Program-made: the position numbers and the translations under genes | Origin: an uncultured Bacilli bacterium | GTDB taxonomy: Bacteria > Bacillota_I > Bacilli_A > RF39 > UBA660 | Reading direction: 5' to 3' | DNA length: 43,721 nt | Assembly: GCA_947600335.1 (NCBI GenBank) | Contig: CANQGB010000008.1 | Location: 1 to 43,721 of the forward strand | Part shown: piece after piece, positions 12,780 to 31,323 of the stretch | Numbering within the stretch: the stretch's first letter is position 1 | Layout: each line of letters opens with the position of its first letter | The notes under the pieces: model-generated | What the model was told of the DNA's origin: nothing | Seen by the model: only the letters and a program-made list of their open reading frames with translations | Databases searched by the model: none

Positions 12780-12803
12780 TAATTTAAAGTAGAGGTGTTT
12801 TTA

Positions 12804-15113: not shown

Positions 15114-15135
15114 TTAAATATAGGAGGGTACTTAG

Positions 15136-15480
15136 ATGAACAGTGAATTTTCAGTTAAGAAGAACAAAAAATCTATTGTCAAAATTTTGGCTATAGTAAG
15201 TGGAGTAGTTGTCGCGGCCATTATATTATATATGATTATTTCTTATAAAAAGTCCTTACATTATTATGAATTAGAATGTCAATCTAATGAAGGGCATATT
15301 ACTATTATCTACAATAAATCAAAGATTACGGGATATTCGGCTAGTAAAATAAGTTATAATCTGGTTCAACAACAAAATGAAGCTCAAAAAATGGGAATCG
15401 ATAATTATATTTCCCAATTTAGCGACTGGTTTGAAGATACTACAACAGGAACTTGCACGATTGAAGAAAAATATAGATAA
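15136..15480 (+). CDS. Small membrane-anchored protein downstream of the ABC exporter
   Basis: A 114-residue protein with a lysine-rich cytoplasmic start, one membrane helix (about residues 16-38) and a 75-residue extracytoplasmic part. Two cysteines (LECQS and GTCTIEE) could form a disulfide, and WFEDTTTGTC is a striking C-terminal motif. It follows the ABC gene after 22 bases with an AGGAGGG ribosome binding site, and a terminator comes next, so it probably shares the exporter transcript. It could be an accessory or cargo protein. I do not recognise the family with certainty. Confidence 0.7.
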   Translation: MNSEFSVKKNKKSIVKILAIVSGVVVAAIILYMIISYKKSLHYYELECQSNEGHITIIYNKSKITGYSASKISYNLVQQQNEAQKMGIDNYISQFSDWFEDTTTGTCTIEEKYR

Positions 15481-15485
15481 GACTT

Positions 15486-15516
15486 AAAGCATGTATAAAG
15501 CAAGTATATGCTTTTT
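15486..15516 (+). terminator. Intrinsic terminator of the ABC exporter operon
   Basis: AAAGCATGTA (15486-15495) pairs with TATATGCTTT (15505-15514), ten pairs with one G-T. T residues follow. Confidence 0.8.
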
Positions 15517-15580
15517 TAAATTGGAATATTATATTAATAGAAATTGAAACATAGAAAGGGCCATTTTAAACGAAAAAAAT

Positions 15581-15609
15581 TTGACAAGTGGAATTAAATT
15601 TGCTAAAAT
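15581..15609 (+). promoter_or_regulatory. Strong sigma-A type promoter
   Basis: TTGACA (15581-15586), a 17-base spacer and TAAAAT (15604-15609), with a TG one base before the -10. This is among the best promoters in the window and lies 32 bases upstream of the 159-residue protein gene. Confidence 0.8.
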
Positions 15610-15641
15610 TAATAGGCTTGCGCAAAAAAGGAGGACTCTAA

Positions 15642-16121
15642 ATGAGTGAACAAGTAAAAGCTAAGGCAACTGTTTATGGTTTAGGAATTGATAGCCCGGT
15701 GTTTTTTGATGAAGCAGAATTAGATAATATTCCCGAAAAAGGAATGTATCATGGTATATATGTTGATAAAGAATATTTAGTTTCTATTGAATATATTGGT
15801 TATTTCGCTAATAAATACGATGTTTTTAAAACAACAAAGATAAATGGTGAAGAAACCTATTATTATGCTGGTGGCTCCTATAATAGACTCCAAATATATG
15901 AAGGTAATTATCAAGACGATTATTTTAGGTGGCAACCATCTTTTATATCTTACTATGCTGATTTAAACAATTTATATAATGTTTTTCGGGCCCGAGGAAT
16001 TATTTTTCAAAATGACATCTATGCTCAAAAAACATTGGACAATGTGATACTAAATACCAACTTTGGCAATATGACTTATTATCAAAATGCACCGCGCTTA
16101 GTTCGTAGTAAAAGTTGTTAA
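15642..16121 (+). CDS. Hypothetical soluble protein, strongly expressed signals
   Basis: A 159-residue protein without signal peptide or membrane helix. It is rich in Tyr, Phe, Asn and Asp and looks beta-rich. No motif that I recognise is present. Expression signals are strong: a near-consensus promoter and the ribosome binding site AAAAGGAGG. The C terminus ends in SKSC. It is monocistronic and faces the convergent spoVB-like gene with only five bases between them. Function is unknown. Confidence 0.7.
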   Translation: MSEQVKAKATVYGLGIDSPVFFDEAELDNIPEKGMYHGIYVDKEYLVSIEYIGYFANKYDVFKTTKINGEETYYYAGGSYNRLQIYEGNYQDDYFRWQPSFISYYADLNNLYNVFRARGIIFQNDIYAQKTLDNVILNTNFGNMTYYQNAPRLVRSKSC

Positions 16122-16150
16122 AAGTTTTAATAGTTTTTTAAAACTTTTTT
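16120..16150. terminator. Bidirectional terminator between convergent genes
   Basis: AAAAGTTTT (16120-16128) pairs with AAAACTTTT (16140-16148) across an 11-base loop, with T runs on both strands. It spans the stop codons of both flanking genes. Confidence 0.7.
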
Positions 16151-17422
16151 TATTTGGTGATAATTTAAGAAAACAACAAAAATAATATTGACAATTTCGG
16201 AAATAACTAACCCATATATGCCAATTTTTAAGAAGGAAAGAACACCCAAGATAACGGTTTTTAACACAATTCCCCAAAAAGTAATTTTCATCGTAAAATT
16301 GGCTAGACCTAAACCTTGTAAAGTACTGATAATGGGGCTTTCTAAATAAAAAAGAACAAAAAAAGGGGCTAAAACTTTGATGTAATCACTACCACTAGTT
16401 GTATTGTATAAAGTAACTAAAAGTGGTTCCCGAAATAAAAAGATTAAACAAGAAAAAGATAAACCTAAAACAAGGGCAATTATTAAGGCTTGATTAAAAC
16501 GCCGTTTGACCATTTTATAGTTTTTTTGGTAGAAAAACTTACTAATCTCGGGAACTAAAGCCGATGATATCGCCGCGATAAAAAAAGAAGGCATGGATAA
16601 AAGGGCGATGGAGTAAGCATTATAAGCTCCATATTCACGTAAGATAAAACTGTTATCATAGCCAACAAATAATAAAACATTAGTCAAGATAATGGGTTCA
16701 AAGAAAAAGCCAATGTTTCCAATAAGTCTGGAAGAAACTGTCGGTAAACTAACACCTAATACTTCTTTCATAATACTTAAATGAGGTTTTAAATCATTCC
16801 TTTCAATTAAAAAGTTTTTTGGCGCAAAAGCTAATAAAATAATTATCGAAAAGATTTCGGAAATAATATTTAATAAAATAAAAGCACAAACCCCGATTAA
16901 AATACTTTTCTTAACAAAATAGGGAAGCAAGGTAGCAATTAAAATTAACCGAATGACTTGCTCTAAAACATTAGAAACGACATAAGGCATATTTCTTTGT
17001 TTACCAAAATAATAACCTTTAATAATACTTGAAATGCTAATAAATGGTAAAGTTAATGTACAGGCGATAAGTAATACATAGGCTTCCTTATTTTTTAAAA
17101 GTTCAAAAGCAATAAACTTACTTGCCAAAAACATCGTAACGATTATTAAAGTGTTAACTAAAATCATAATCATTAAAGAAGAAAGCAGAATGCGAATACT
17201 GCGAATTTTTCCTTCCGCCACTAACTTAGAAATAGCTAAAGGCATCGCTAAAGTGGCAATGGTAATTAACAGCGAATAAGTAGGCATAACTAATGAATAA
17301 AGGGATACGCCTTCTTCTAAAATAATTCGGGTATAGATAATTTTAATTATAAAACCTAGTATCTTAGTTAAAAAGCCCCCACAAATCAAAATAATGGTGG
17401 CTGAAAGAAATTTATTTTTCAT
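16127..17422 (-). CDS. spoVB: SpoVB/MurJ-type polysaccharide flippase
   Basis: A 431-residue multi-helix membrane protein of the MOP (MviN/Wzx/SpoVB) superfamily that would flip lipid-linked cell-wall or polysaccharide precursors. The N-terminal pattern GGFLTKILGFIIKIIYTRI and the GYYFGKQ segment match SpoVB-like proteins. About 12 helices are visible. At 431 residues it is shorter than Bacillus SpoVB, which is about 520. In Bacillus, spoVB is beside comN, and here it is divergent from a comN homologue. The ribosome binding site is AAAGGAG. The superfamily call is firm. The choice of SpoVB over MurJ or another flippase rests partly on gene order. Confidence 0.82.
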   Translation of the reverse strand: MKNKFLSATIILICGGFLTKILGFIIKIIYTRIILEEGVSLYSLVMPTYSLLITIATLAMPLAISKLVAEGKIRSIRILLSSLMIMILVNTLIIVTMFLASKFIAFELLKNKEAYVLLIACTLTLPFISISSIIKGYYFGKQRNMPYVVSNVLEQVIRLILIATLLPYFVKKSILIGVCAFILLNIISEIFSIIILLAFAPKNFLIERNDLKPHLSIMKEVLGVSLPTVSSRLIGNIGFFFEPIILTNVLLFVGYDNSFILREYGAYNAYSIALLSMPSFFIAAISSALVPEISKFFYQKNYKMVKRRFNQALIIALVLGLSFSCLIFLFREPLLVTLYNTTSGSDYIKVLAPFFVLFYLESPIISTLQGLGLANFTMKITFWGIVLKTVILGVLSFLKIGIYGLVISEIVNIIFVVFLNYHQIKKVLKNY

Positions 17423-17432
17423 GTGCTTCTCC

Positions 17433-17461
17433 TTTAAAAAATATCAAAAGTGCTTTATAAT
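17433..17461 (+). promoter_or_regulatory. Promoter for comN-rel-dtd
   Basis: TTTAAA (17433-17438) and a perfect TATAAT (17456-17461) with a 17-base spacer. This lies 24 bases before the comN start. Confidence 0.55.
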
Positions 17462-17485
17462 ATATATGAAATAGGAGGCTCAAAT

Positions 17486-17737
17486 ATGGCTTTAGATGAA
17501 TTTAAAACCGTTGCCGAACTTTATCAAAAAGTTTTACCAGCATTAAAAAATAAAAAGAAAGAATTCACGATTAATAAAATCTATTTTGTGAAAGAGAAAG
17601 ATATTTGGCAATGTCTTTTAGAAACTAGATGGCAATATGCTTCTAATTTAACTTTATTTGATATTGTCAATGATATTTTAACTTTACGCGAAGAAGATTT
17701 ATTAAATTATTTACAAAAGAAGAGGGAAAATTTATGA
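17486..17737 (+). CDS. comN: ComN-like post-transcriptional regulator
   Basis: An 83-residue soluble protein whose pattern fits the Post_transc_reg (ComN/YrzD) family: an N-terminal helix ending in ALKNKKKEF, a KEKDIWQCLLETRW segment, and LTLFDIVNDILTLREEDLLNYL at the C terminus. In Bacillus subtilis ComN controls comE operon mRNA and lies beside spoVB, as here. I start at ATG 17486 because AGGAGG (17473-17478) is correctly spaced. A longer reading from 17450 would begin inside the -10 region. It overlaps the rel start by four bases (ATGA). Confidence 0.78.
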   Translation: MALDEFKTVAELYQKVLPALKNKKKEFTINKIYFVKEKDIWQCLLETRWQYASNLTLFDIVNDILTLREEDLLNYLQKKRENL

Positions 17738-19878
17738 TTACAGAAACCGTAACATTTGCAACATTAAAAGAAAAATTAGCACCCGTTTTTAACTCTAAGG
17801 AGTTAGGAGAAATCGAAGCTGCGTATAATTATGCTTATCAAGCCCATTTAGGAAAATTTCGGTTAACCAATGAACCATATATTACGCATCCTTTGAATGT
17901 GGCTTTGATTTTAAGTGACTTAAATGTCGATAAAACAACGATTATCGCGGCCTTATTACATGAAACTATCAATAATGGTAATGCCAGTAAAGAAGAATTG
18001 GAAGCTAAGTTTGGGAGTGAAGTTGCTTTAATTGTCCAAAGTGTTAGTACCTTAAATAAATTAGAATTGCCAGATGAAAAAGAATCTTCCAACATTTATT
18101 TACGAAAAGTCTTAGTGGGTTTATCAGATGATGTCCGCGTCTTGTTTGTCAAATTAGCCGACCGCTTACATAATATGCGAACTATCTGGGCCGTTAATCC
18201 CGCCAAACAAAAAAGAAAAGCTCGCGAAACAATGAATGTTTTAATTCCTATTGCCCATCGGTTAGGAATGTATTCCATTAAAAGTGAGTTAGAAGATTTA
18301 TGTTTAAAATACTTAAAACCCGATGTTTACGAAGATATTTTAAAACAACTAGATGCTTCCGTCGAAGAATTAAATGATGTGTTAGAAACTATGCAAGATA
18401 GTATCTCTAATATTTTAATTGAGCATGGGATTAATTTTCACATAAAAAGTCGAGTTAAAAGTGTTTATAGCATTTATAAAAAACTCGAAAAAGGCAAAAA
18501 ATGGAATGAAATATATGATATCTTAGCCTTAAGAGTAATTGTCAAAAAGGTAAGTGATTGTTATTTAGCTATCGGGTTAATTCATTCAAAGTTCCATCCT
18601 TTGCCCAAAAGATTTAAAGATTACATAGCTATGCCCAAAGAAAATATGTATCAATCATTACATACAGGTGTTTTTGGAATTGATGGCCATATTTTTGAAA
18701 TTCAAATCAGAACTGAAGAAATGGACGAGATTGCCGAGAAAGGAATTGCTTCCCATTGGTCATATAAGGAAAAAGGCACGAAAAAGATTCAAAGCATGAT
18801 GGAACAAAAACTCGAAATATTCCGGAATGTCATTGAAACCTATAAAGAAAATGATAATGAATTAGAACTTAATAATACTTTACAAGATGATTTATTAGGT
18901 GAGTTAATTTATGTCTTTACCCCTAAAGGGGATGTTGTCGAACTACCAAAAGGGGCTACTCCCGTCGATTTTGCTTATCGCATTCACTCTAAAGTAGGAG
19001 ATACAACAGTTGGAGCTTTAGTTAATGAGGAGATTGTTCCTTTATCTTATGAATTACACGATAATGATGTTGTTAAAATCAATACTAATAAAAACTCGAC
19101 TCCAAGTAAAGAATGGTTAAACTTTGTTAAAACGACCAGTGCTAAAAGTAAAATTAAAGCCTATTACAGTAAACAAGACCGCAACGAATATATTGAAAAT
19201 GGTAAAATGATTTTAGAAAAAGAATTGCGGAAGCAAAAACTATCTTTCAATGAATGTCTAAGTCCGGAAAAAGTGGCTAAGATTTGTCAAGATTTAAACT
19301 TTAACGATATTTCCGATATTTATATGGCTATCGGTTCATTTCGGTATACCGCGAATTACATTATTAAACTATCAACGGAAGAAAAACACGATGTTCACGA
19401 TGCTTTAATTGAAAAAGTTGTTAAACCGAAAGTACTAGCGAATAATAGTAAAAATGATATTATTGTCGAAGGTAAAACCGATATTTTAGTGTCTTTGGCG
19501 AAATGTTGCCAACCCGTTAAAGGCGATAATATTATTGGGTATGTTACAAAGGGTGAAGGTATTACTGTCCATCGGGCTGATTGTCCAAATGTCAAAAGTA
19601 ATAGTGAAAGATTAATTAGTGTTGCTTGGAACGAATTAAACGAAAATGAATATTTAGCTGAGATATTTATTGAAAGTAATTCGGTAACTAACCAAATCGC
19701 CGAGATTATCAATAAGGCCACTACGAAAAATATTTATGTCGCTGCTTTTAACTCTAATGAATTAGCTGGGGGAACAAATTACAATGTTACGGTTAAAGTT
19801 AAAAATGTAACTATATTAAATGATTTTATCAATAGTTTGTATTCGATATCTAATATTACGAAAGTTGGTAAAAGATGA
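17734..19878 (+). CDS. rel: RelA/SpoT-family (p)ppGpp enzyme with altered hydrolase site
   Basis: A 714-residue long-form Rel that makes (p)ppGpp during starvation. Domain order is HD hydrolase (about 20-180), synthetase (about 230-350), TGS (about 385-450), zinc-finger region KCCQPVKGDN with HRADCPN, and ACT (about 645-714). Synthetase residues look intact (SIYKKL, DILALRVIV, the RFKD motif of bifunctional Gram-positive enzymes, EIQIRT). In the HD domain His52, His76, Asp143 and Asn147 are kept, but the usual HDxxED is HETINN: Asp is Glu77, and the catalytic Glu-Asp pair is Asn80-Asn81. Hydrolysis may therefore be lost. It overlaps comN and dtd by four bases each. Confidence 0.95.
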   Translation: MITETVTFATLKEKLAPVFNSKELGEIEAAYNYAYQAHLGKFRLTNEPYITHPLNVALILSDLNVDKTTIIAALLHETINNGNASKEELEAKFGSEVALIVQSVSTLNKLELPDEKESSNIYLRKVLVGLSDDVRVLFVKLADRLHNMRTIWAVNPAKQKRKARETMNVLIPIAHRLGMYSIKSELEDLCLKYLKPDVYEDILKQLDASVEELNDVLETMQDSISNILIEHGINFHIKSRVKSVYSIYKKLEKGKKWNEIYDILALRVIVKKVSDCYLAIGLIHSKFHPLPKRFKDYIAMPKENMYQSLHTGVFGIDGHIFEIQIRTEEMDEIAEKGIASHWSYKEKGTKKIQSMMEQKLEIFRNVIETYKENDNELELNNTLQDDLLGELIYVFTPKGDVVELPKGATPVDFAYRIHSKVGDTTVGALVNEEIVPLSYELHDNDVVKINTNKNSTPSKEWLNFVKTTSAKSKIKAYYSKQDRNEYIENGKMILEKELRKQKLSFNECLSPEKVAKICQDLNFNDISDIYMAIGSFRYTANYIIKLSTEEKHDVHDALIEKVVKPKVLANNSKNDIIVEGKTDILVSLAKCCQPVKGDNIIGYVTKGEGITVHRADCPNVKSNSERLISVAWNELNENEYLAEIFIESNSVTNQIAEIINKATTKNIYVAAFNSNELAGGTNYNVTVKVKNVTILNDFINSLYSISNITKVGKR

Positions 19879-20318
19879 GAGTCCTTATTCAACGCAGTTT
19901 AAAATCTCAAGTAACTGTCGATGATAAGATAGTTGGTCAAATAACAAAAGGTTTAGTTGTTTTGGTTGGTTTTACTTATAATGACACAGTTGAAGATATG
20001 GATTATTTAGTTAAGAAAATCATCAATTTAAGAGTGTTTGATGATGCAGAACATGTTATGAATAAAAGTATCTTAGATATTAAGGGGGAGATTTTATTAG
20101 TTAGTCAATTTACTTTATATGCCGATACGAAGAAAGGTAATCGTCCAAGTTATATTAATGCTTTAAAAAGTTCGGAAGCCTTACCTTTATATGAACAATT
20201 TATCGCGAAATTACAAGAATATGTTCCCGTTGCTACTGGCATTTTCGGGGCTGACATGCAAGTTGCGATTACCAATGATGGACCCGTAACCATTATGCTC
20301 GATAGTAAAGCTAAATAG
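19875..20318 (+). CDS. dtd: D-aminoacyl-tRNA deacylase Dtd
   Basis: A 147-residue enzyme that hydrolyses D-amino acids from mischarged tRNA. Both active-site motifs are present: SQFTLYADTKKGNRPS and the C-terminal NDGPVT (the family's cross-subunit GP motif). Length is standard. It overlaps rel by four bases (ATGA), the usual rel-dtd arrangement in Firmicutes. In Bacillus the next genes are lytH and hisS; here accessory block 2 is inserted. Confidence 0.96.
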   Translation: MRVLIQRSLKSQVTVDDKIVGQITKGLVVLVGFTYNDTVEDMDYLVKKIINLRVFDDAEHVMNKSILDIKGEILLVSQFTLYADTKKGNRPSYINALKSSEALPLYEQFIAKLQEYVPVATGIFGADMQVAITNDGPVTIMLDSKAK

Positions 20319-20328
20319 GTGAAGAATA

Positions 20329-20357
20329 TTGTTTGTGAACACTTTTAATGCTATACT
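20329..20357 (+). promoter_or_regulatory. Promoter of the second C39 cassette
   Basis: TTGTTT (20329-20334), 17 bases, TATACT (20352-20357) with an extended TG one base upstream. Transcription would begin near 20364. This rules out the in-frame ATG at 20348 as the start of the downstream gene. Confidence 0.65.
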
Positions 20358-20380
20358 TTATGCTAGGGGAAGTGTTGAAA

Positions 20381-21199
20381 ATGCTTGAAGGTTTAAAAAA
20401 GGTATTTACATGGCTATATGGTTTTGGACTACTAGTAATTTTGATGACTTTATTTTGGAGTCTTAAGAATAGTTCAACCAAAAACTTATCTTATTCACCC
20501 AACTTAGAATTATTTTTAAATGCGGTTCATAATGAATATCAAGCGCCTGGGGTTTATAAAATTCAAGACAAATTAGCAGTTAATCTGAATAAAGTTATAG
20601 AATCAGAACCAACTTATTTAATTAATGATTTTCCCACTTTTAATCAATTTCCTGATTATCCTACGGGTTGTGAAAGTATCGCTTTATACAATATGCTAAG
20701 ATATTACGATGTCGAGGTTACTCCTGATGAGATTGTAAACGCATTAAAAAAGGGGGATGACCCTTATTGGAAAAAGAAAAAATTATATGGTGGCAATCCT
20801 GAAATCGAATTTGTCGGGGACCCCAGAGATATTCATAGCTATGGAGTTTACCAAAAACCAATTATCGAGGTTGCTAATAAGTTTAAGCCAGGAATGATCG
20901 ATTATACTGGGCACTCTATAAATGATGTGCTAGAGATAGTTAAAAAAGGAATACCTGTGCAAGTATGGGTATCGGTTGATTTAAAAGATACGGAAGTTTG
21001 TGCTTCTTGGACTCATAAAGAAACGAATCAACAAATTGATTGGATTTGTGGTTTACATAGTGTAGTAATTGTGGGCTTTAATAAGGCTGAGGTTATAGTC
21101 TCTGATTCTACTAATGGCGAGATAGTCCATTATGAAAGAGAACAATTTAAAAAAATTTATAATTTATTTGGCCAAAGAGCCATATACTATCCTGAATAA
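20381..21199 (+). CDS. Membrane-anchored C39-like cysteine peptidase, short form
   Basis: A 272-residue paralogue of the protein at 9353. One membrane helix (about residues 12-31) leads through a 45-residue linker directly to the C39_2-type domain, so the Ig-like stalk of the first copy is missing. The triad is Cys97 (PTGCES), His226 (GLHSVV) and Asp242 (VSDSTNG). The Cys-His and His-Asp spacings (129 and 16) are identical to the first copy, and the domains align end to end without gaps. Start at ATG 20381 follows from the promoter and AGGGGA; TTG 20375 is possible. A partner gene follows after 15 bases. Substrate unknown. Confidence 0.84.
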   Translation: MLEGLKKVFTWLYGFGLLVILMTLFWSLKNSSTKNLSYSPNLELFLNAVHNEYQAPGVYKIQDKLAVNLNKVIESEPTYLINDFPTFNQFPDYPTGCESIALYNMLRYYDVEVTPDEIVNALKKGDDPYWKKKKLYGGNPEIEFVGDPRDIHSYGVYQKPIIEVANKFKPGMIDYTGHSINDVLEIVKKGIPVQVWVSVDLKDTEVCASWTHKETNQQIDWICGLHSVVIVGFNKAEVIVSDSTNGEIVHYEREQFKKIYNLFGQRAIYYPE

Positions 21200-21214
21200 A
21201 AAGGAGGAATTTTA

Positions 21215-21958
21215 ATGAATAAAAAATTAATGATGGGTGTAGGTATCATTGCAATTATAGCAATAGTCTTGCTAATCGGTTTTAATTTACGAAAAGATAA
21301 CAAAGAAGAATTAGATATTAATTCCGCGTTAGTGCAAGAATTATACGAAATGGCTAATCCCAGTAATGATGCGTTTGTCTTAAAGGAATTATATGCTAAT
21401 AATGTAATAACTGATAAATTTAAAATTACGATGGGAATTGTAAAGTATTTAAAAGATAATCCTGATATTGCCAAACATTTTAGAAAAACATCCGATGAAG
21501 AAAAAAAATATCTAAGTAAGGAAATAGTACTAGATGGTGCGCGAAAAGTTTTAGGGGAACAAACTGTTTATCGCGACCAAGATGTATATGTTTTAAATGG
21601 GGATATTTGTAATGCCATTTATCATCAAGATTCAGAACAATACGAAATTATTTCTGGTTGTGATGGTAGTCAATTTGAAAGATTTCATCGTAAGATAACG
21701 AAGGCTTATCAAGAAAACGATACTATTTATATATATGAAAAATCAATTTTTGTATATTATTATTTTGATTTAGATAAAAACCAAACATCAGTTTATAATA
21801 ACTGTATTGAAAATAAATTATTAGATTATATCGAAACAGATATATCAGTAAATTCTGAAGTCTCATTAGAAGATTATATAGATGAAGCAGCAACATATCG
21901 TTATAAATATGTTTTAGAAAATGGTGAGTATGTGTTTGAAGGCCTAGAACTAGTCTAA
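21215..21958 (+). CDS. Membrane-anchored partner of the C39-like peptidase (copy 2)
   Basis: A 247-residue paralogue of the protein at 10685. It has an N-terminal membrane helix (about residues 5-23), then LDINSALVQELYE and a soluble extracytoplasmic domain. The pair CNAIYH...SGC again has exactly 16 residues between the cysteines. The domain ends in a Tyr/Glu-rich segment (DEAATYRYKYVLENGEYVF) that matches the end of copy 1. No family is recognised. The ribosome binding site AAGGAGG is strong. Retention of both genes in both copies argues for a shared task with the peptidase. Confidence 0.75.
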   Translation: MNKKLMMGVGIIAIIAIVLLIGFNLRKDNKEELDINSALVQELYEMANPSNDAFVLKELYANNVITDKFKITMGIVKYLKDNPDIAKHFRKTSDEEKKYLSKEIVLDGARKVLGEQTVYRDQDVYVLNGDICNAIYHQDSEQYEIISGCDGSQFERFHRKITKAYQENDTIYIYEKSIFVYYYFDLDKNQTSVYNNCIENKLLDYIETDISVNSEVSLEDYIDEAATYRYKYVLENGEYVFEGLELV

Positions 21959-21961
21959 TTC

Positions 21962-21990
21962 TTGTAACTTTAAGAAATTTATGCTATAGT
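21962..21990 (+). promoter_or_regulatory. Promoter for the metallopeptidase gene
   Basis: TTGTAA (21962-21967), 17 bases, TATAGT (21985-21990), with an extended TG one base before the -10. Transcription would begin near 21997, inside the adjacent hairpin sequence. Confidence 0.6.
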
Positions 21991-22014
21991 AATCCCCACA
22001 TGAAGGGGATTTTT
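21991..22014 (+). terminator. Terminator hairpin that also carries the next ribosome binding site
   Basis: AATCCCC (21991-21997) pairs with GGGGATT (22005-22011) across 7 bases, and a T run follows. It would stop transcripts from the C39 cassette. AGGGG in the right arm is also correctly placed as ribosome binding site for ATG 22015. Confidence 0.6.
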
Positions 22015-23427
22015 ATGAATTTGGTTAAAATAAGGGTTATGCAAAAACCGAAAGGCGATAAATGTGTCTTTATTAAGTTTAAAAATGGCAATATATTAAA
22101 TATTGATAATATTAAAGAAAAACACTTGCAATATTATTATAAAAAGTTCTGTCAACAAGAAAAAAAGTCTTTAGAAGATTTGATTAATGAACAAAAAATT
22201 ACTTATGAAGCATTTATCCCCAAAGTTTATTATCTTTTAAAAAAAGAGGCTCAAAAAAGAAATAAATATTATAATTGTTTAAATACAGTAAATTATTTTG
22301 AATCTTTAGCCATTTCTTCAAGTTGCATAGAATGGATTAATATGTATTTACGGATTGGAAATAATGAATCTAAGAAGGCCTTGACTAATTTAATCTATCC
22401 TCCAACGTTATTAAATACTATTTTTATTTTGATTACTTCATTTGTGTTATATCGAAAAAATGTTGTAAATATTTCTAAAAAACTCCAACCTAAAAAATAT
22501 CAAAATGCCCAAAAAAGACTTTTTCTAGTATTAATAATGAATGGGTTATCTATATTAAAAGCTGAAGGTTATGATTTAACTTATTTAAAAAATCTCAATT
22601 ATATTCTTAAACAACAAGACATAACTTTAGATAACTTGGTTGATACCGATAATTTATCGGAAGAAGAAATTCGATTAGAAAAAGTCAATTTAGTATTTGA
22701 GGCTTTAGATCAAAATCCCTTTATTAAAGAAGAGTATCACAATTATTTAAATAATTTAAAACCATATCTAATAGATAATGTGTATATCGATTTAGATAAA
22801 ATGTATCAAGATTTTAAAACTTATCGGATTTATGATTTTTATAATTATGATTCAAATATTGCCGCTGTTCATTTTAAGGATGAAAATGTTAGTGTTATTT
22901 ATGAAAATTTAGATAGCCAGGAAGATGATTCTGATTATAAAGCTATGAAAGTAATGCATGAAACCATTCACCATACTGGTACTATCGCAGAATATCCTTT
23001 TTTAAATGAAGGAATAACCTCTTGCTTAGAACGTGAATATAATTATCAAACTTATGAAGATTTATTTGACTACAGAGTGTATAAACCAGAAATTTTGGCT
23101 ACTAGATTTTTAACTTATTTAGTTTCTAAAGATACTATCTTACAAGCTTATAGTGAAGAAAACGTTGAAATATTATTAGAAAAATTAGACCAAATTTATA
23201 AGACACGAAGTAATACTAAACTTTTAATGAATATTTTAAGAATTTATGTTCAGAAATATCCTCATTTAACTGAAGAAGATAAAAATTTAATTAAAGAAAT
23301 CATTGAATTAGGAACATTGACACAAGAACAAAAAGATAATTATGCCTACTATTTAGGGCTTGATAATTGTTATGCTGATGATTATTTATTTAATCAAAAG
23401 TTGAAATTAAGTAAAATAGAAAAATGA
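22015..23427 (+). CDS. Putative membrane-associated zinc metallopeptidase
   Basis: A 470-residue protein of unknown family with a HExxH zinc-binding motif, His315-Glu316-x-x-His319. Glu332 in an NEG context follows 12 residues later, the layout of gluzincin peptidases in which the downstream Glu is the third ligand. One probable membrane helix lies at about residues 126-147. The N-terminal 100 residues are basic and Lys/Tyr-rich; the C-terminal part is helical. There is no signal peptide, so topology is uncertain. I use ATG 22015 with AGGGG upstream. An ATG at 22000 would be almost leaderless. It lies directly after the second C39 cassette but has its own promoter. Confidence 0.68.
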   Translation: MNLVKIRVMQKPKGDKCVFIKFKNGNILNIDNIKEKHLQYYYKKFCQQEKKSLEDLINEQKITYEAFIPKVYYLLKKEAQKRNKYYNCLNTVNYFESLAISSSCIEWINMYLRIGNNESKKALTNLIYPPTLLNTIFILITSFVLYRKNVVNISKKLQPKKYQNAQKRLFLVLIMNGLSILKAEGYDLTYLKNLNYILKQQDITLDNLVDTDNLSEEEIRLEKVNLVFEALDQNPFIKEEYHNYLNNLKPYLIDNVYIDLDKMYQDFKTYRIYDFYNYDSNIAAVHFKDENVSVIYENLDSQEDDSDYKAMKVMHETIHHTGTIAEYPFLNEGITSCLEREYNYQTYEDLFDYRVYKPEILATRFLTYLVSKDTILQAYSEENVEILLEKLDQIYKTRSNTKLLMNILRIYVQKYPHLTEEDKNLIKEIIELGTLTQEQKDNYAYYLGLDNCYADDYLFNQKLKLSKIEK

Positions 23428-23466
23428 TAAAATAGGAATTTGCATATTTGTTCTAAAATTTTTGGC

Positions 23467-23495
23467 TTGTTATCTATGACATGTTGTTTTAAAAT
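23467..23495 (+). promoter_or_regulatory. Promoter for the TPR-like gene
   Basis: TTGTTA (23467-23472) and TAAAAT (23490-23495) with a 17-base spacer, 26 bases before the start at 23522. Confidence 0.5.
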
Positions 23496-23521
23496 ATTAC
23501 CAAAAGAAAAGGTGATATGAA

Positions 23522-24364
23522 ATGGCAAAGCCAAAATATAAAAATTCTATATATAGCACTGCTTACATTGAGAAAATAAATAATATGATTGGAAGACAAC
23601 AATATTCGCAAGCTTTAATAGAATTTCAAAAATATTTTCAAACATATCCTAATGACCCAGTAATATATTATAGATATAGCAATTTTTTAATGACACTTGG
23701 TGATTTTAAACAAGCCAAAGAGTTTATAGAAAAAATGGAGCATAAATATTTATCTATGAAAAGTAATTTTTACTTGAATAAAGTTAAGTTCCGGCTTTTA
23801 ATTTTAGAAGAAAAATACTTTGAAGCTTTAGAACTTTTGAATAAATATCCCGAAATAATTGATTATCGAAATTTAGAATTAAAGGCTTTTGTCTATAAAA
23901 TGACGGGTCGAGATATGGAATTCGCTAGTGAAAAAGATTCTTATACTATGCATCAAATTTTGGATTATCAAGAAGAAGCCTTTTTAGATCATCTTCAAAA
24001 ACATTTGGATATTGAGCTAAATGAAAGTGATTGTATTTTTACACCGAAATTTCCTTTAAATGAGATTATTGAATATATAAAGACTATTTTACCAACAGAT
24101 AGTTGCAAGTATCAAACTACCTTAAGCATTTATAATTTTAAATATCAAGAATGTGGCCATGTTGGTAAATATTATACAGATTTTTTTCAAGTTGCCGCTT
24201 TGAATAATGTCACTCATGATATATTAACTATGTATCCTTGCTTTCAACCGGAGTATTTTAGTTATACTGATTTAGATCCAATTTTTAGAAAAGAGGAAGA
24301 AGGACCTAAATTAAAAAGAGTTAGCCAAATAGATAAATTTAATCAAAGGTATGGCTTAAAGTAA
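23522..24364 (+). CDS. TPR-like repeat protein
   Basis: A 280-residue soluble protein. Residues about 15-140 show helix pairs with TPR-like spacing (RQQYSQALIEFQKYFQTYPNDPVIYYRYSN continues into LGDFKQAKEFIEKM and LEEKYFEALELLNKYPE). The second half is a separate domain with several cysteines (DCIFTP, DSCKYQ, YQECGHVG, YPCF), ending RVSQIDKFNQRYGLK. TPR units usually mediate protein contacts, so this is probably an adaptor; its partner is unknown. The ribosome binding site is AAAGGTGAT. Confidence 0.7.
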   Translation: MAKPKYKNSIYSTAYIEKINNMIGRQQYSQALIEFQKYFQTYPNDPVIYYRYSNFLMTLGDFKQAKEFIEKMEHKYLSMKSNFYLNKVKFRLLILEEKYFEALELLNKYPEIIDYRNLELKAFVYKMTGRDMEFASEKDSYTMHQILDYQEEAFLDHLQKHLDIELNESDCIFTPKFPLNEIIEYIKTILPTDSCKYQTTLSIYNFKYQECGHVGKYYTDFFQVAALNNVTHDILTMYPCFQPEYFSYTDLDPIFRKEEEGPKLKRVSQIDKFNQRYGLK

Positions 24365-24394
24365 TATTGAGTATAAAAGAAAAGAGGTTAGAAA

Positions 24395-24910
24395 ATGGAA
24401 AAAATAATTATTAATAAGGATAATATAATTGATGAAGATATAACCGAAGTAGTACAAAGGGCTAAAGTTTTAATTGTCAATTCGCAAGATGAAATTCTTT
24501 TGGGGCATTGCTATAATAATTATCAATTTCCCGGAGGACATGTTGAAGATGGGGAAAGTTTAATTGAAGCCGTTAATAGAGAAATAACAGAAGAAACAGG
24601 CATGGTATTAAATTTAAAAGATATAGAACCTTTCGCCCAAATTGTTGGCTATTATAAAGATTGGCCCCAAGTGGGTAAAAATCGCAAAAACGAAATTTAT
24701 TATTATGCCGTTAAAACAGATGAATTACCAAACTTAGCTAATACCCTTTATACGGCCGAAGAACTAGCAGGCAATTTTGAATTAAAGTATGTTCCTTTAG
24801 AAAATGTATTAACGGTTTTACAAGATAATGCTTTAAAACATGGTGATACTGAAGGGATTGCTCAAGAAATGATAGATATTTTAAGAATCTATTTAAACAA
24901 AAATGCCTAA
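24395..24910 (+). CDS. NUDIX hydrolase
   Basis: A 171-residue NUDIX protein with a complete box: GHVEDGE, then seven residues, then REITEETGM. This box binds the divalent metal used to cleave nucleoside diphosphate derivatives. The substrate cannot be assigned; candidates are oxidised nucleotides, sugar nucleotides or RNA caps. It follows the TPR-like gene after 30 bases and lies directly upstream of the hisS T-box leader. Confidence 0.9.
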   Translation: MEKIIINKDNIIDEDITEVVQRAKVLIVNSQDEILLGHCYNNYQFPGGHVEDGESLIEAVNREITEETGMVLNLKDIEPFAQIVGYYKDWPQVGKNRKNEIYYYAVKTDELPNLANTLYTAEELAGNFELKYVPLENVLTVLQDNALKHGDTEGIAQEMIDILRIYLNKNA

Positions 24911-24936
24911 AAGCGTTAAGATGACATTAAAATTGT

Positions 24937-24966
24937 TTGACTAACCATGAGGTTTTGTACTAAAAT
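24937..24966 (+). promoter_or_regulatory. Promoter of the hisS T-box transcript
   Basis: TTGACT (24937-24942) and TAAAAT (24961-24966) separated by 18 bases. Transcription would begin just before the T-box Stem I. Confidence 0.65.
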
Positions 24967-24981
24967 AAGGTTATGTAAATT

Positions 24982-25180
24982 TTTATGGCAAAGAAAAAGT
25001 AATGTTTTAATTCTTTTATAGAGAGGGCTAAATGGTGCAAATGCCTAAAGAAAAAACATGAAATAGACACCTTTAATAGTCCATAAACGCGGGTGACCGT
25101 GATAAAAATAATGAGAGTACCTAGTAAAGTAAGGTGGCACCGCGGATTTTAATTCGTCCTTACATTTATTAGGTTTTTTT
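24982..25180 (+). promoter_or_regulatory. T-box riboswitch (histidine specifier)
   Basis: A tRNA-sensing leader upstream of hisS. Stem I is closed by TTTATGG (24982-24988) with CCATAAA (25081-25087), and an upper stem is formed by ATGTTTT (25002-25008) with AAAACAT (25053-25059). The specifier loop between them carries AGTA (24998-25001) and GAA (25060-25062), the loop E pattern, and a CAC codon at 25068-25070, which specifies His. The T-box core GGTGGCACCGCGG is at 25133-25145. The terminator stem pairs 25120-25134 with 25158-25173 (15 pairs including one G-T, one bulge), followed by seven T. Uncharged tRNA-His should favour the antiterminator and so expression of hisS and downstream genes. 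Confidence 0.93.
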
Positions 25181-25201
25181 ATTTAAAAAGGAGAGATAAA
25201 A

Positions 25202-26446
25202 ATGATTTTAAAACCAAAAGGAACTTATGATGTTTGGGGTAATGATGCCATTAAATTAGAAAGAATTAATCGTTTAATCGAGTATTTTTGTGAATTTTAT
25301 AATTATGACTATATTAGAACCCCAATTTTTGAAGCTAAAGATTTATTTCACCGCAGTGTCGGGGATGAAACTGATATTGTCCAAAAAGAAACCTATGACT
25401 TTAAAGATAGAAGTGATAGAGAATTAACTTTACGACCTGAAGGAACCGCCGGAGTAGTTCGCAGTTTTATCGAAAATAAAATGTATGGGGAATCTTTACC
25501 AAAAAAACTATTCTATAATGGAACCATGTATCGTTATGAACGACCAGGTAATGGCCGAAATCGGGAATTTACGCAATTTGGAGTAGAAATTTTAGGTTCG
25601 AATGACCCAGCAATTGATGCCGAGATTATTTCCATGCCTTATCGGTTATTTGAAGAATTAGGTATTAAAGATTTAAATGTTAAAATTAATAATTTAGGTT
25701 CTAAAGAAGATCGAGAAAATTATAAAAAAGCTCTAGTTGAATATTTAAAACCTCATTTAGATGATTTATGTGAAGATTGTAAACGGCGGTTTGAAGTTAA
25801 TCCTTTAAGAATATTAGATTGCAAAGTTGATGCAGATAGTGACATATTAAAAAATGTACCGAGTATTTTAGACTATCAAAGTGCCGAATCGACAGCGCGT
25901 TTTAAAAAAGTTATCGAATACTTAGATTACTTAGATATAGATTATGAAATTGATGATAAAATTGTTCGCGGTTTAGATTATTATGATTATACAGTTTTTG
26001 AAATTGTTAGTGAAAATGAAGCTTTAGGTGGTGCGGCCACCATCGCGGCTGGTGGAAGATATAATGATTTAGTTGAAAAACTAGGTGGTCCAAGTACACC
26101 ATGTATGGGTTTCGCTAGTGGTCTTGAACGCGTAATGCTTGCTATGGAGGATGTGGAAAAAAATCCTTTAGAGGTTTATATCATGTATGTTAATGAAGAA
26201 GAAAAATTAAAAGCCATTACTTTAGCCCAAGATTTAAGAATAAGTGGTGTATCTTGTGATTATGATACCACTGGTCGGAGTTTAAAAAGTCAATTTAAGG
26301 AAGCTGACCGCAACAATGCGCGAGAATTGGTTATTCTAAATAGTGAAGATTTAAAATTAGGTTTAATTACGGTTAAAGATAATATAACCAAAGAAGAAAC
26401 CAAAGTTGATGAAAATGAAATAATTGATTATTTAGTATCAAGATAG
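25202..26446 (+). CDS. hisS: Histidyl-tRNA synthetase
   Basis: A 414-residue class II synthetase that charges tRNA-His. Visible motifs are motif 2 (RPEGTAGVVRSF, MYRYERPGNGRNREFTQFG), the histidine-binding motif RGLDYYDYTVFE, and GGRYNDLVEKLGGP with motif 3 GFASGLERVML. The C-terminal anticodon-binding domain follows. The ribosome binding site is AAGGAGA. The T-box leader with a His specifier supports the assignment independently. asnS follows after 10 bases. Confidence 0.97.
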   Translation: MILKPKGTYDVWGNDAIKLERINRLIEYFCEFYNYDYIRTPIFEAKDLFHRSVGDETDIVQKETYDFKDRSDRELTLRPEGTAGVVRSFIENKMYGESLPKKLFYNGTMYRYERPGNGRNREFTQFGVEILGSNDPAIDAEIISMPYRLFEELGIKDLNVKINNLGSKEDRENYKKALVEYLKPHLDDLCEDCKRRFEVNPLRILDCKVDADSDILKNVPSILDYQSAESTARFKKVIEYLDYLDIDYEIDDKIVRGLDYYDYTVFEIVSENEALGGAATIAAGGRYNDLVEKLGGPSTPCMGFASGLERVMLAMEDVEKNPLEVYIMYVNEEEKLKAITLAQDLRISGVSCDYDTTGRSLKSQFKEADRNNARELVILNSEDLKLGLITVKDNITKEETKVDENEIIDYLVSR

Positions 26447-26456
26447 GAGAATATTA

Positions 26457-27824
26457 ATGGATTTAAGAGAAATTTGGGAAAATAAAGAGAAATACTTACA
26501 ACAAGAGATTGTGCTTAATGGTTGGGTGAGAAGTCGTCGTCCGCAAAAAGAATTTGGCTTTATTGATTTTAGTGATGGAACTTGTTTTAAACATCTTCAA
26601 ATCGTGTATGATAACCAAATGCCTAATTTTGAAGAAGTAAGTAAAATTTTAGTTGGCAGCGCTATAAGCGTTAAGGGTACACTAGTTAAGTCCGAAGGGG
26701 GAAATCAAGATATTGAAGTTAAAGCTTCGGAAATTACACTTTTAGGTGCTTGCCCCGAAGATTATCCGATTCAACCTAAAAAACACACCCGCGAATTTTT
26801 ACGAGAAGAAGCCTACTTACGTCCTCGAACTAATTTATTTCAAGCAGTATTTAGGGTAAGAAGCATCGCCGCTTTTGCTATTCATAAATACTTTCAAGAA
26901 AATGGTTATGTTTATTTTCATGCTCCTTTAATTACCGCGAGTGATTGTGAAGGAGCCGGTGAAATGTTTCAAGTAACAACTTTACCGATTGATAAAATCA
27001 AAGGAACTCCTGATTATAAGCAAGACTTCTTTGGGAAAATGACTAATCTGACGGTAAGTGGCCAATTAGAGGCTGAAACTTTTGCTATGGCTTATAAGAA
27101 GACTTATACTTTTGGTCCGACTTTTAGAGCCGAAAATTCTAATACGAAAACCCATGCAGCCGAGTTTTGGATGATTGAACCTGAGATTGCTTTCTGTGAT
27201 TTAGAAGGCGACATGGATATCATGGAAGATATGTTAAAGTATATTGTTAAATACACTTTAGATAATTGCCCTGATGAAATTAATTTCTTTGATAGTTTTG
27301 TCGAAAAAGGTTTAAAAGCCAAATTAGAAAAATTAGTTCAAAGTAAATTTACCAGAATTGACCATGAAGAAGCTATTACCTTATTAAAGAAAGCGCCAGT
27401 TAAATTTGAATTTACGCCCGAATATGGGGAAGATATTGCAAAAGAACATGAAAAATATTTAACTGAATACTATGATGGTCCTGTCTTTATTAAAAATTGG
27501 CCCAAAGATATTAAAGCCTTCTATATGAAACAAAATCCTGATGGTAAAACCGTGGCCGCGGTAGACTTAGAAGTTCCAGGTGCTGGAGAGTTAATGGGTG
27601 GTTCTCAACGCGAAGAAGATTACGATAAATTACTAAAAAGAATGCAAGAATTAAATATGGATAGTGCTTCTTTAGATTGGTATTTAAATTTAAGAAAATA
27701 CGGAACATGTGTTCATTCTGGTTTTGGAATGGGCTTTGAAAGATTGTTAATTTATTTAACCGGTGTCGAAAATATTCGGGATGTTATTCCTTATCCACGG
27801 ACTCCTGGTAATTGTGAATATTAA
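26457..27824 (+). CDS. asnS: Asparaginyl-tRNA synthetase
   Basis: A 455-residue class IIb synthetase. The N-terminal OB fold (LNGWVRSRRPQKEFGFIDFSDG) binds the anticodon. The catalytic core has ASDCEGAGEMFQV, typical of AsnRS rather than AspRS, the motif 2 region FGPTFRAENSNTKTHAAEFW, and motif 3 GFGMGFERLLIYLTG. Because AsnRS is present, the GatCAB amidotransferase encoded downstream is likely needed for Gln-tRNA rather than Asn-tRNA. Bacillus does not have asnS at this position, between hisS and aspS. Confidence 0.96.
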   Translation: MDLREIWENKEKYLQQEIVLNGWVRSRRPQKEFGFIDFSDGTCFKHLQIVYDNQMPNFEEVSKILVGSAISVKGTLVKSEGGNQDIEVKASEITLLGACPEDYPIQPKKHTREFLREEAYLRPRTNLFQAVFRVRSIAAFAIHKYFQENGYVYFHAPLITASDCEGAGEMFQVTTLPIDKIKGTPDYKQDFFGKMTNLTVSGQLEAETFAMAYKKTYTFGPTFRAENSNTKTHAAEFWMIEPEIAFCDLEGDMDIMEDMLKYIVKYTLDNCPDEINFFDSFVEKGLKAKLEKLVQSKFTRIDHEEAITLLKKAPVKFEFTPEYGEDIAKEHEKYLTEYYDGPVFIKNWPKDIKAFYMKQNPDGKTVAAVDLEVPGAGELMGGSQREEDYDKLLKRMQELNMDSASLDWYLNLRKYGTCVHSGFGMGFERLLIYLTGVENIRDVIPYPRTPGNCEY

Positions 27825-27845
27825 AAATAGATGGAAGAAAATTAA

Positions 27846-28658
27846 ATGGATTTAGTAAATATTAGTTACAAATACCTAAATTGGTTCATCAATGGTGAAG
27901 AATTGTTAGAACTATTAGAAAATAGAGATGCTAAGCAATTTAAAGATTCTGAAAATAAAGAAATCGAAGAATTAATTGATAAAATTAAAGAAATTATAAA
28001 GACTATTCCCAATGAAATAGACGAAATTGAAATTCAAAGAAGACTAACCTTGAACAGAATTATATCTAATGTCGAGCAAACTTTAAAAGCCAACAAATTA
28101 GATGAAAAAGGGTATGCTTTTTTAAAAGAGCGCTACGAAAGTTTACTAAAAGAAAAAGATGTTATAAGAGATGGTGGCAAGCGCTACGAAATGATATTAA
28201 GCTTGCTAATTAATAGTCAAACTTATAAAACTTCTTGGAAAGCAATGAGTGATTTAGAATTACTCGAATTTATTACACAATATATAAGAGCTCCAAGACC
28301 ACCTAAAATTAGTCAAGAAACATTTGATAATTTAGTGCAAGTGGGTATTAAAGAAGATAAAAGAGAAGCTTTGTGGCGTTTAGCGGCTAATTATGATGCT
28401 TTTAATCAAGATATATCGTTAATCGAAGACTATTTTATTGAAAAAAGGGATGTCTATTATTTAACTGAACTAATTAGTATTATGGGTGTAGCCTTAGATA
28501 AAGACCGAATAATTGAAAAAATTGGTCAAACTCATGATTTAAATTTTTATAAAGAAATCTTGCATAAAGGCGAATATTTAAAAGATTGTTTTAATGAAGA
28601 ACAAAAGAAAAGAATTAATGAAATTGTTAGAAAGGAAGAAAAAAATGAAACAATATAA
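27846..28658 (+). CDS. Hypothetical helical protein in the synthetase operon
   Basis: A 270-residue soluble, highly charged, mostly helical protein (Lys/Glu-rich, probable coiled coil around residues 30-110) with no known motif. It follows asnS after 21 bases and its end overlaps the aspS start by 14 bases, so translation of the two is probably coupled. That position implies co-expression with the synthetases. I do not recognise the family, and no enzymatic signature is visible. Confidence 0.7.
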   Translation: MDLVNISYKYLNWFINGEELLELLENRDAKQFKDSENKEIEELIDKIKEIIKTIPNEIDEIEIQRRLTLNRIISNVEQTLKANKLDEKGYAFLKERYESLLKEKDVIRDGGKRYEMILSLLINSQTYKTSWKAMSDLELLEFITQYIRAPRPPKISQETFDNLVQVGIKEDKREALWRLAANYDAFNQDISLIEDYFIEKRDVYYLTELISIMGVALDKDRIIEKIGQTHDLNFYKEILHKGEYLKDCFNEEQKKRINEIVRKEEKNETI

Positions 28659-30402
28659 TAATGGTGAATTTCGTAAAAAAGATATCAATAAAACTTATAC
28701 CGTTTATGGTTGGGTAAATAAAAGAAGAGATATGGGAGGCGTAATTTTTGTTGACTTGCGGGACCGTTCCGGTTTCTTACAAGTTGTCTTTAATCGGAGC
28801 TTCTTACAAAATGATTTTGCTTTAGCCGAAAGTTTAAAAAATGAATACTGTATTAAAGTAACTGGAGAATTAATTGCCAGAACTCCTGAGATGATTAATC
28901 CGAAAATTCCAACGGGCGAAGTCGAGTTAATGGTGCAAGAATTAGAAATATTAAGTGAAGCCGAAGCCGTACCTTTTAATATCTATGAAGATAAGGAAAT
29001 TAACGAAACTATCGGCCTTAAATATCGTTACTTAGATTTAAGAAGAGAAAAATTACAAAATACCATTAAAACTAGACATTTAATTACAACTAGTGTTCGG
29101 GAATTTTTAAATAATGAAGGTTTTTTAGAAATAGAAACACCTATTCTTTGTAAATCAACTCCGGAAGGTGCCAGAGATTACATCGTTCCTTCGCGGGTAA
29201 ACAAAGGCACATTTTATGCTTTACCTCAAAGCCCGCAAATATTTAAGCAATTATTAATGGTTAGTGGTTTTGAAAAGTATTATCAAGTAGCTAGATGTTT
29301 TCGCGATGAAGATTTAAGAGCTGATAGACAACCAGAATTTACCCAAATCGATATGGAAATGAGTTTTGCTAGTCAAGAAGATGTCATTGACTTAGTGGAA
29401 AAAATGATTAAGCATGTCGTTAAAAAAGTTAAAAATATTGATTTACCAGAATTTCCAAGAATGCCTTATAAAGAAGCTATGGACCGTTTTGGCAGCGATA
29501 AACCTGATACCCGTTTTGGCATGGAACTACTAGATTTAACCGAAATCTTAAGAGGTACTAAAATGAATGTCTTTGGTAATGTTATCGAAAATGGAGGAAT
29601 TATCAAGTGTTTAATTGTTAAAAATAATGGCGATAAATATTCTCGGAGTGATGTTGAACATTTAACTGATTTTGTTAAAATCTATGGCGCGAAAGGTCTT
29701 GCTTGGTTGAAGTACGATAATGATACCTTTAATGGGGTCATTGCTAAAAACTTAGAAGATGAAAAACTAGCCTTAATGCAAGAAACATATAATATCGAAA
29801 ATAATGATTTAATCTTAATTGTGGCCGATAAAAAGAAAATCGTTTATGATGCCTTAGGAGCCCTACGCTTAAAAATTGCGAATGAATTAAACTTAATTCC
29901 GCAAGATAAATTTAATTTCCTATGGGTTGTTGATTTCCCAATGTTTGAATATTCCGAAACTGAAGGAAGATACAAAGCAACACATCATCCCTTTACGATG
30001 CCTAGTGATATAAATAAAGTTAATGATCCGGAAAACTGTTTGAGCGTTGCTTATGACATTGTGTTAAATGGTTATGAATTAGGTGGTGGTTCAGTTCGGA
30101 TTCACAATCCTAAAACCCAAAAGATTGTCTTTGATGCTTTAGGTTTAACCGAAGAAGATATTAAACGGAAATTTGGTTTCTTTATTGATGCCTTTAAATA
30201 TGGGGCACCTCCTCATGCCGGTTTAGCTATTGGTTTAGAGAGATTCACTATGCTTTTAAGTGGTACGGATAATATCAAAGATGTTATTGCTTTCCCTAAA
30301 ACTCAAAGTGCTAGCGATTTAATGAGTGAAGCTCCAACTCAAGTTAGCGATGAACAATTAAAAGAATTAGGAATTGCAGTAGTTGTTGAAGAACAAGAAT
30401 AA
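28645..30402 (+). CDS. aspS: Aspartyl-tRNA synthetase, bacterial type
   Basis: A 585-residue class IIb synthetase with N-terminal OB fold (YGWVNKRRDMGGVIFVDLRD), motif 2 (YYQVARCFRDEDLRADRQPEFTQ), a bacterial GAD insertion domain (about residues 280-420) and motif 3 (GLAIGLERFTMLLSG). ATG 28645 with AAAGGA at 28631-28636 is the natural start; a longer reading from 28594 lacks support. It overlaps the preceding gene by 14 bases. With AsnRS present, AspRS need not mischarge tRNA-Asn. Confidence 0.97.
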   Translation: MKQYNNGEFRKKDINKTYTVYGWVNKRRDMGGVIFVDLRDRSGFLQVVFNRSFLQNDFALAESLKNEYCIKVTGELIARTPEMINPKIPTGEVELMVQELEILSEAEAVPFNIYEDKEINETIGLKYRYLDLRREKLQNTIKTRHLITTSVREFLNNEGFLEIETPILCKSTPEGARDYIVPSRVNKGTFYALPQSPQIFKQLLMVSGFEKYYQVARCFRDEDLRADRQPEFTQIDMEMSFASQEDVIDLVEKMIKHVVKKVKNIDLPEFPRMPYKEAMDRFGSDKPDTRFGMELLDLTEILRGTKMNVFGNVIENGGIIKCLIVKNNGDKYSRSDVEHLTDFVKIYGAKGLAWLKYDNDTFNGVIAKNLEDEKLALMQETYNIENNDLILIVADKKKIVYDALGALRLKIANELNLIPQDKFNFLWVVDFPMFEYSETEGRYKATHHPFTMPSDINKVNDPENCLSVAYDIVLNGYELGGGSVRIHNPKTQKIVFDALGLTEEDIKRKFGFFIDAFKYGAPPHAGLAIGLERFTMLLSGTDNIKDVIAFPKTQSASDLMSEAPTQVSDEQLKELGIAVVVEEQE

Positions 30403-30436
30403 ACATTTCTAGTTATATAAGAAAAGAGAGTTTGAT

Positions 30437-31003
30437 ATGGATTTAGAAGAGTTATTAAATAAAATGAAAATGCCAATTAAAGCGGAAGAAGTATTTTTAA
30501 GTAAAATTGTCATGCCTAATTCGGAAAATCCTGGTGAAATACTAAATTCTCGGCACATTTTATATCGCGATAGTTTAACTAATGGTAAAGAAGATTTATT
30601 GTATAATACGATATTGGCTCACTATTTTAGCCATCCGCAAGATAAAGATTATGATTATATTAAATGGGAATATATTATAAACTTACATGAATTATTAAAA
30701 TTTTTTGGCTTCAATAGCAACTTATATGGTCAAGATATTCAAAATATGTTGGCAACAGTTTTAAATGGTAATTTTGTCAAAAAATATTGCAATTATTTTG
30801 GTTATATTTATAATCCCCAAGTGATTTTTAAAAATGGTAAATGTCATTATGCGAAAAAAACCAAATCATCTATTGCTTTATATCGCCGTTTTGAGAATAA
30901 TAACTTGTCCCTTTATTTTCCTTATTTATTTGATTTAAATCCTAATAGTTCCTTTGAACCATTTCGAGAAGAAGGACCAATCAAAGCTCGAAAATTATTA
31001 TAG
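30437..31003 (+). CDS. Hypothetical protein between aspS and gatC
   Basis: A 188-residue soluble protein without signal peptide or membrane helix. It is rich in Tyr, Asn and Phe (LAHYFSHPQDKDYDY; NYFGYIYNPQ; SLYFPYLFDLNPN). No catalytic motif is recognised. The ribosome binding site AGAGAG precedes the start, and gatC follows after 14 bases, so it belongs to the translation operon. Function unknown. Confidence 0.65.
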   Translation: MDLEELLNKMKMPIKAEEVFLSKIVMPNSENPGEILNSRHILYRDSLTNGKEDLLYNTILAHYFSHPQDKDYDYIKWEYIINLHELLKFFGFNSNLYGQDIQNMLATVLNGNFVKKYCNYFGYIYNPQVIFKNGKCHYAKKTKSSIALYRRFENNNLSLYFPYLFDLNPNSSFEPFREEGPIKARKLL

Positions 31004-31017
31004 AAAAGAGGTTAATT

Positions 31018-31323
31018 ATGAGTAAATTTACAAAAGAATTAGTTGATTCTTTGGCCGATAAATTATTAATCGGTTTAAGTGCCGAAGAAAACCAAATGAT
31101 TATCGATGAATTTGATGTTATTGAAGAAAATATAAGTAAAGTAGATAATTTTGCAAATATTAAAGAAGTTGAACCGATGACCCATTGCTTAGATGATTTT
31201 GTTTTTGAATTAAGAAGTGATGTGGCAGAAGACTCCGTACCAATCGAAGATTTATTAAAAAATTGTGAAAAAACTGAAGGTCGAGAAGTTGAAGTACCAA
31301 AGGTAGTAGGAGGGGAAAATTAA
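31018..31323 (+). CDS. gatC: Glu-tRNA(Gln) amidotransferase subunit C
   Basis: A 101-residue GatC, the small subunit that clamps GatA to GatB. The family pattern is visible in LADKLLIGLSAEENQMI and NIKEVEPMTHCLD (usually VxPMxHxxD), with a short acidic tail and a LRSDVAEDS segment. Its stop codon overlaps the gatA ATG (TAATG). Order gatC-gatA-gatB is standard. Confidence 0.93.
   Translation: MSKFTKELVDSLADKLLIGLSAEENQMIIDEFDVIEENISKVDNFANIKEVEPMTHCLDDFVFELRSDVAEDSVPIEDLLKNCEKTEGREVEVPKVVGGEN

Follow-up and report, generated by a model that had tools for sequence, protein, structure and literature searches.

The product of an open reading frame on the forward strand of the window, by which we mean the whole stretch of 43,721 nucleotides from an uncultured Bacilli bacterium that was analysed, is probably a zinc peptidase of the gluzincin type (clan MA) that is anchored in the membrane and faces outward. 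It belongs to a large, fast-changing and undescribed family that is, as far as sampled, limited to one lineage. Zinc binding, activity and orientation of this protein are predictions. A sequence-only reading of the same DNA had described a protein of no recognised family that carries a gluzincin-like site. This description is supported by the conservation of the site among relatives, by the predicted fold, and by the lack of any Pfam or NCBIfam match. Judged by the libraries searched, the kind of enzyme is known but the family is new. A probable surface protease without a name in these libraries is present in a sizeable share of one group of gut bacteria with small genomes. With the family and its active-site residues defined, annotators can build a profile, and a target is at hand for experiments on extracellular cutting by uncultured bacteria.

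The gene and its putative zinc site

The reading frame (22000-23427) is open over 475 codons. The ATG at 22015 is the likelier start, since an AAGGGG sits just 5' of it; the gene then covers 22015-23427 and encodes 470 amino acids. Residues are numbered here according to the longer frame of 475 residues, in which Glu316 of the sequence-only reading becomes Glu321. The ribosome-binding site and the start codon lie within a weak stem-loop (21985-22017, forward strand; -12.7 kcal/mol, z -1.78), which was equalled by 10 of 200 shuffled sequences and is absent from the terminator listing. It could be the terminator of the upstream gene or serve in translational control. A search of positions 14000-32000 of the window against Rfam returned nothing at the gathering score.

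The translation agrees with the site as described before: HETIH occupies residues 320-324 (22957-22971), with His320, Glu321 and His324, and is followed after 12 residues by Glu337, the presumed third zinc ligand, in an NEG motif (23005-23013). Both motifs are conserved in alignment A1. In 20,000 composition-preserving shuffles of the protein, HExxH arose in 147 and HExxH-x(11-19)-EG in 2. Conservation among relatives is the stronger test of the site. A profile search without a motif filter collected 78 ORFs, from which 79 segments were aligned; 75 of the segments cover all six columns, and 71 of these 75 retain His, Glu, His, Glu and a Tyr. Many of the 78 ORFs are rows of alignments A1 or A10 or near relatives of such rows. 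The loci behind them are a non-random choice from the A1 matches, taken strongest first and spread across genera. Invariance inside A1 is partly built in, because its 22 rows were picked by motif from 25 matched loci (L003, L022 and L023 were dropped); the rows of A10 were likewise mostly selected among motif-bearing members.

The fifth conserved residue, which the sequence-only reading had missed, is Tyr361 (23080-23082), presumed to stabilise the transition state. It stands in a Y-x14-S arrangement in the window protein and in Y-x14-G in most relatives, Gly being found at Tyr+15 in 52 of 71. The four exceptional segments read R-G-H-E-H, H-E-E-N-Q, H-G-H-E-Y and H-Q-H-E-F at the five positions. 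Among the 75 segments, the Gly following the Glu is less strictly kept than the other residues of the site, and the linker from the second His to the Glu is 11 to 31 residues long in the 71 segments. An HExxH motif with a conserved downstream Glu as the putative third ligand, the hallmark of gluzincins, is thus present in these 71 of 75 segments.

An excerpt of PMC12190285 describes the oxyanion hole of E. coli PepN as formed by the zinc and the side chain of Tyr381; by analogy, Tyr361 may play a comparable part. In the mechanism that we propose, zinc would be held by His320, His324 and Glu337, Glu321 would be the base that activates the water, and Tyr361 would act on the oxyanion and stabilise the transition state.

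Predicted fold and relation to named peptidase families

A model of the full-length protein reached a pLDDT of 61.0 and a pTM of 0.49, with a good catalytic part. Modelled by itself from 14 rows, the catalytic domain of about 223 residues (208-430; 22621-23289), which contains the HETIHH/NEG region singled out by the sequence-only reading, gave a confident prediction (pLDDT 86.2, pTM 0.84). Its elements are a strand (90-96), the HExxH helix (103-119), the Glu helix (126-140) and the Tyr helix (155-168), to which 207 has to be added for the numbering of the 475-residue frame. In this model, the strand, the HExxH helix and the Glu helix run in gluzincin order. The best match of the domain model in VIA-align 2 was E. 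coli aminopeptidase N (Z 9.0, rmsd 4.3, 178 residues). Since models without a clear match often receive a Z of 7-8 in VIA-align 2, and 9.0 is little higher, the argument for the fold rests as much on unanimity and coverage as on the score itself: 47 of the best 50 rows were M1 proteins, the others being Lugdulysin, collagenase H and 3cmn (rank 50 at Z 6.5), and the matches extend across most of the domain. The absence of a family from these rows does not count against it. Foldseek returned no match with E <= 0.001 for the domain model, and neither did the viral fold library; the best Foldseek hits were to collagenase G (E 0.021 and 0.061). Taken together, the domain model and the VIA-align 2 matches point to a gluzincin-type catalytic fold, with Foldseek by itself non-significant. 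From the order of the helices and the resemblance to catalytic domains of M1 enzymes, we infer that His320, His324 and Glu337 converge in the predicted structure.

Neither Pfam, searched up to an E of 10, nor NCBIfam, searched up to an E of 1, has a model that matches the window protein, and on this sequence evidence the family is without a name in both libraries. It is linked to a sister subfamily, for which a profile comparison gave 97.0% (E 8.8e-11, 146 columns) with the site and Tyr361 paired; in the sister proteins, the insert that separates the second His from the Glu is longer. The likeness to M1 enzymes (PepN, LTA4H, ERAP) consists of an HExxH helix, a Glu helix and a Tyr 15 residues ahead of a Gly, kept in this order, and M1 proteins are the best structural matches of the domain, with Z values between 9.0 and 6.5 and aligned lengths of 152-182 residues. 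The same Tyr-x14-Gly is seen in L154, which is an M1-type protein from the same class. In contrast, the M1 motif is given as HEXXH-x18-E in the excerpt of PMC12190285, whereas the window protein has x12, and x18 occurs in only 1 of 71 relatives. The GXMEN exopeptidase motif is present in none of the 78 family ORFs, and, in a further difference, the catalytic domain of the window protein sits behind a membrane anchor. Lacking both GxMEN and the x18 spacing, the protein was not assigned to Peptidase M1.

A profile comparison with M1-like proteins gave 35.0%, and comparisons with Peptidase_MA_2-like proteins of the same lineage gave 64.3% and 88.8%, all of them local and weak. In the latter proteins, HExxH and EG align with the site, and in one comparison the Tyr does so as well. 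Neither PF01433 (M1) nor PF05299 (M61) matched the window protein (E up to 10), and both are absent from the families that a scan of the 22 A1 rows listed (E up to 1); a sister-type protein (L003) scored just under the M61 cut-off, with 20.9 versus 22 bits. PF13485 (Peptidase_MA_2) did not match the window protein, and its matches in 8 of 20 genomes sit elsewhere, in other proteins. The x12 spacing fits the pattern HEXXHX(8,28)E, which an excerpt of PMC3267712 gives for the M60-like/enhancin proteins, host-associated metallopeptidases; PF13402 (M60-like) did not match the window protein, with E values up to 10 allowed. The peptidase domain of clostridial collagenases (M9) was the top Foldseek match and appeared at Z 6.5 in VIA-align 2, but the Foldseek match is non-significant and a sequence match is lacking. 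Because the links to Peptidase_MA_2, M1 and M61 are local, weak or below cut-off, we place the family in the gluzincins and in no named family.

Further searches gave no named relative. PDB sequences matched profiles A1, A10 and A8 with best E values of 0.066, 0.039 and 0.12, and none of them was a peptidase. Viral contigs searched with the single protein yielded 22 pattern matches, none of which was confirmed. Over 22 members, PHROGs, PADLOC and NCBIfam produced scattered matches in one or two members only, the best being phrog_10499 (1.3e-6, two members) and PRK00118 (1.1e-5, one member).

Probable membrane anchor, orientation and alternative readings

The single membrane helix of the sequence-only reading is probably an undercount. 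A clear hydrophobic stretch at residues 132-150 (22393-22449; mean hydropathy 1.69) is followed by a weaker one at residues 175-193 (22522-22578; 1.13), with four Lys/Arg in the 12 residues ahead of it. The full-length model has helices at these stretches (136-151 and 164-188), at low confidence. The second segment is the probable anchor before the catalytic domain, and its only modest hydrophobicity counts against our preferred reading. The N-terminal region up to residue 130 (22015-22389), also of low model confidence, is absent from short family members in A1 and is predicted to be cytoplasmic.

By hydropathy count, used here in place of a trained topology predictor, a hydrophobic segment precedes the domain in 66 of 72 scored members. 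Lys and Arg within 12 residues are more frequent on its N side than on its C side in 55 of the 66, less frequent in 3 and equal in 8, and the mean net charge is +2.95 on the N side versus +0.24 on the C side. According to the positive-inside rule, this bias indicates that the catalytic domain probably faces outward.

A catalytic domain on the cytoplasmic side of the membrane is a reading that we regard as unlikely. The two hydrophobic stretches of the window protein could by themselves bring the chain back inside, and some relatives have no evident anchor, such as four sister-subfamily zincin genes in a row in the window's own genome (L153:189-4686, contig C18); however, the last segment has more Lys and Arg on its N side in most members, and many relatives have a single N-terminal anchor, both of which argue for the outside. 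We give similarly little credit to a very divergent member of M1, M61 or Peptidase_MA_2. The prevalence of M1 among the best structural rows, the sister-type protein near the M61 cut-off and the local profile matches to Peptidase_MA_2-like proteins would fit such a membership, but the x12 spacing, the missing GxMEN and the complete lack of Pfam matches with E <= 10 to the window protein do not.

The protein could also be a non-cutting receptor or regulator that uses a zincin fold to bind a ligand or a metal, as pseudoproteases do, although we regard this as improbable. In its favour, at least one of the five residues is missing in 4 of 75 segments, and two of the three segments with a broken HE have lost the Tyr as well. 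One of the broken genes (L070:7944-9518), in which RG stands in place of the HE of HExxH and His in place of the Tyr, lies in tandem with an intact copy at 11755-12915 and is likely a pseudoenzyme, as judged from its sequence. Yet the window copy, like 71 of the 75 segments, has all five residues, and a site kept at an overall identity of about 20-25% among family members (A1) would be hard to explain without catalysis. Two further copies (L066:8001-9400 and L071:7030-8588) are interrupted by stops, so that each falls into two or three ORFs, and are either decayed genes or assembly errors; together with the broken L070 copy, they would show that the family also decays.

For the anchored, outward-facing peptidase that we prefer, the absence of GxMEN would favour endopeptidase over aminopeptidase action, and the likeliest substrates are peptides outside the cytoplasm or proteins of the envelope. 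More tentatively, the family may represent a new group of lineage-restricted, fast-diversifying surface gluzincins, which could take part in envelope remodelling or have peptides or proteins from the gut or from neighbouring microbes as substrates. A cytoplasmic N-terminal domain in some members, tandem and broken copies, and glucosaminidase neighbours in one group are the features gathered under this reading.

Spread of the family and genomic neighbourhood

With the window protein as a single query, relatives were found in 2 other genomes of 60. An order-wide search (E up to 0.01) found them in 21 other genomes out of 385; two of these 21 (L022 and L023) are weak matches that leave the active site uncovered. 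Within the same taxonomic family, profile A1 detected relatives in 134 of 386 genomes and 74 of 150 genera, and the wider profile A10 did so in 54 of 116 genomes. In a class-wide sample, A1 matched 6 of 296 genomes, five of them from the same taxonomic family; the sixth match (G643, E 3.7e-4) contains four stops, ends short of the active site and was rejected as a chance match. Domain profile A5 matched 4 of 295 genomes in a phylum sample, all from the same taxonomic family. Six close relatives used as queries on genome contigs recovered 10 loci in MAGs titled Bacilli, Bacillales or bacterium, one of them being Candidatus Scybalousia intestinigallinarum, now Alloscybalousia (Bacilli). As far as sampled by these sequence searches, the family appears to be confined to gut Bacilli of a single taxonomic family. 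Profile A10 has five matches altogether in the window's own genome, and the row of four zincin genes mentioned above is located near genes that we take to encode an Obg-like GTPase and a PolC-like protein.

The sequence-only reading had placed the gene behind a second C39 cassette, with two protease types side by side. The cassette is indeed there: the product of 20348-21199 matches Peptidase_C39_2 (2.7e-25) and is 69% identical over about 200 residues to that of 9353-10672. In the window, a two-gene cassette of a C39_2-type protein and a short, N-terminally hydrophobic protein thus occurs twice (9353-11431 and 20348-21958), the copies being 69% and 33% identical. The adjacency holds for this window, but no relatives of its C39, anchored and TPR neighbours were found in the other 30 loci compared, and an operon or functional unit with the C39 or the TPR gene was rejected on these grounds. 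Five window ORFs (15136-15480, 15642-16121, 27846-28658, 30437-31003 and 34221-35009) have no Pfam match above the curated cut-off.

Neighbours upstream on the same strand and within 400 bp were collected for 61 members, and 60 of them were scanned with Pfam, a fragment of the family gene itself at L071 being omitted. Among the best 25 of 70 families, Radical_SAM (8 of 60) and Glucosaminidase (7 of 60) were the most frequent, and the others occurred once or twice. Seven of the eight Radical_SAM matches are pflA-type genes at L064-L070, and the family gene is located 3' of pflA in all eight loci L064-L071. A functional link to pfl-pflA was rejected, since these species are related to each other and the neighbours differ in other genera. 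The remaining contexts consist of varied housekeeping genes. Because contexts vary and the neighbours of the window gene are unmatched in the other loci, the family gene looks like a stand-alone accessory gene. At L072, L083, L087 and L091, the gene directly upstream encodes an N-terminally hydrophobic protein of the Glucosaminidase type (below the curated cut-off at L083), and several of the loci L064-L071 carry genes for collagen-like GPTGPT repeat proteins a short way upstream of the pfl genes.
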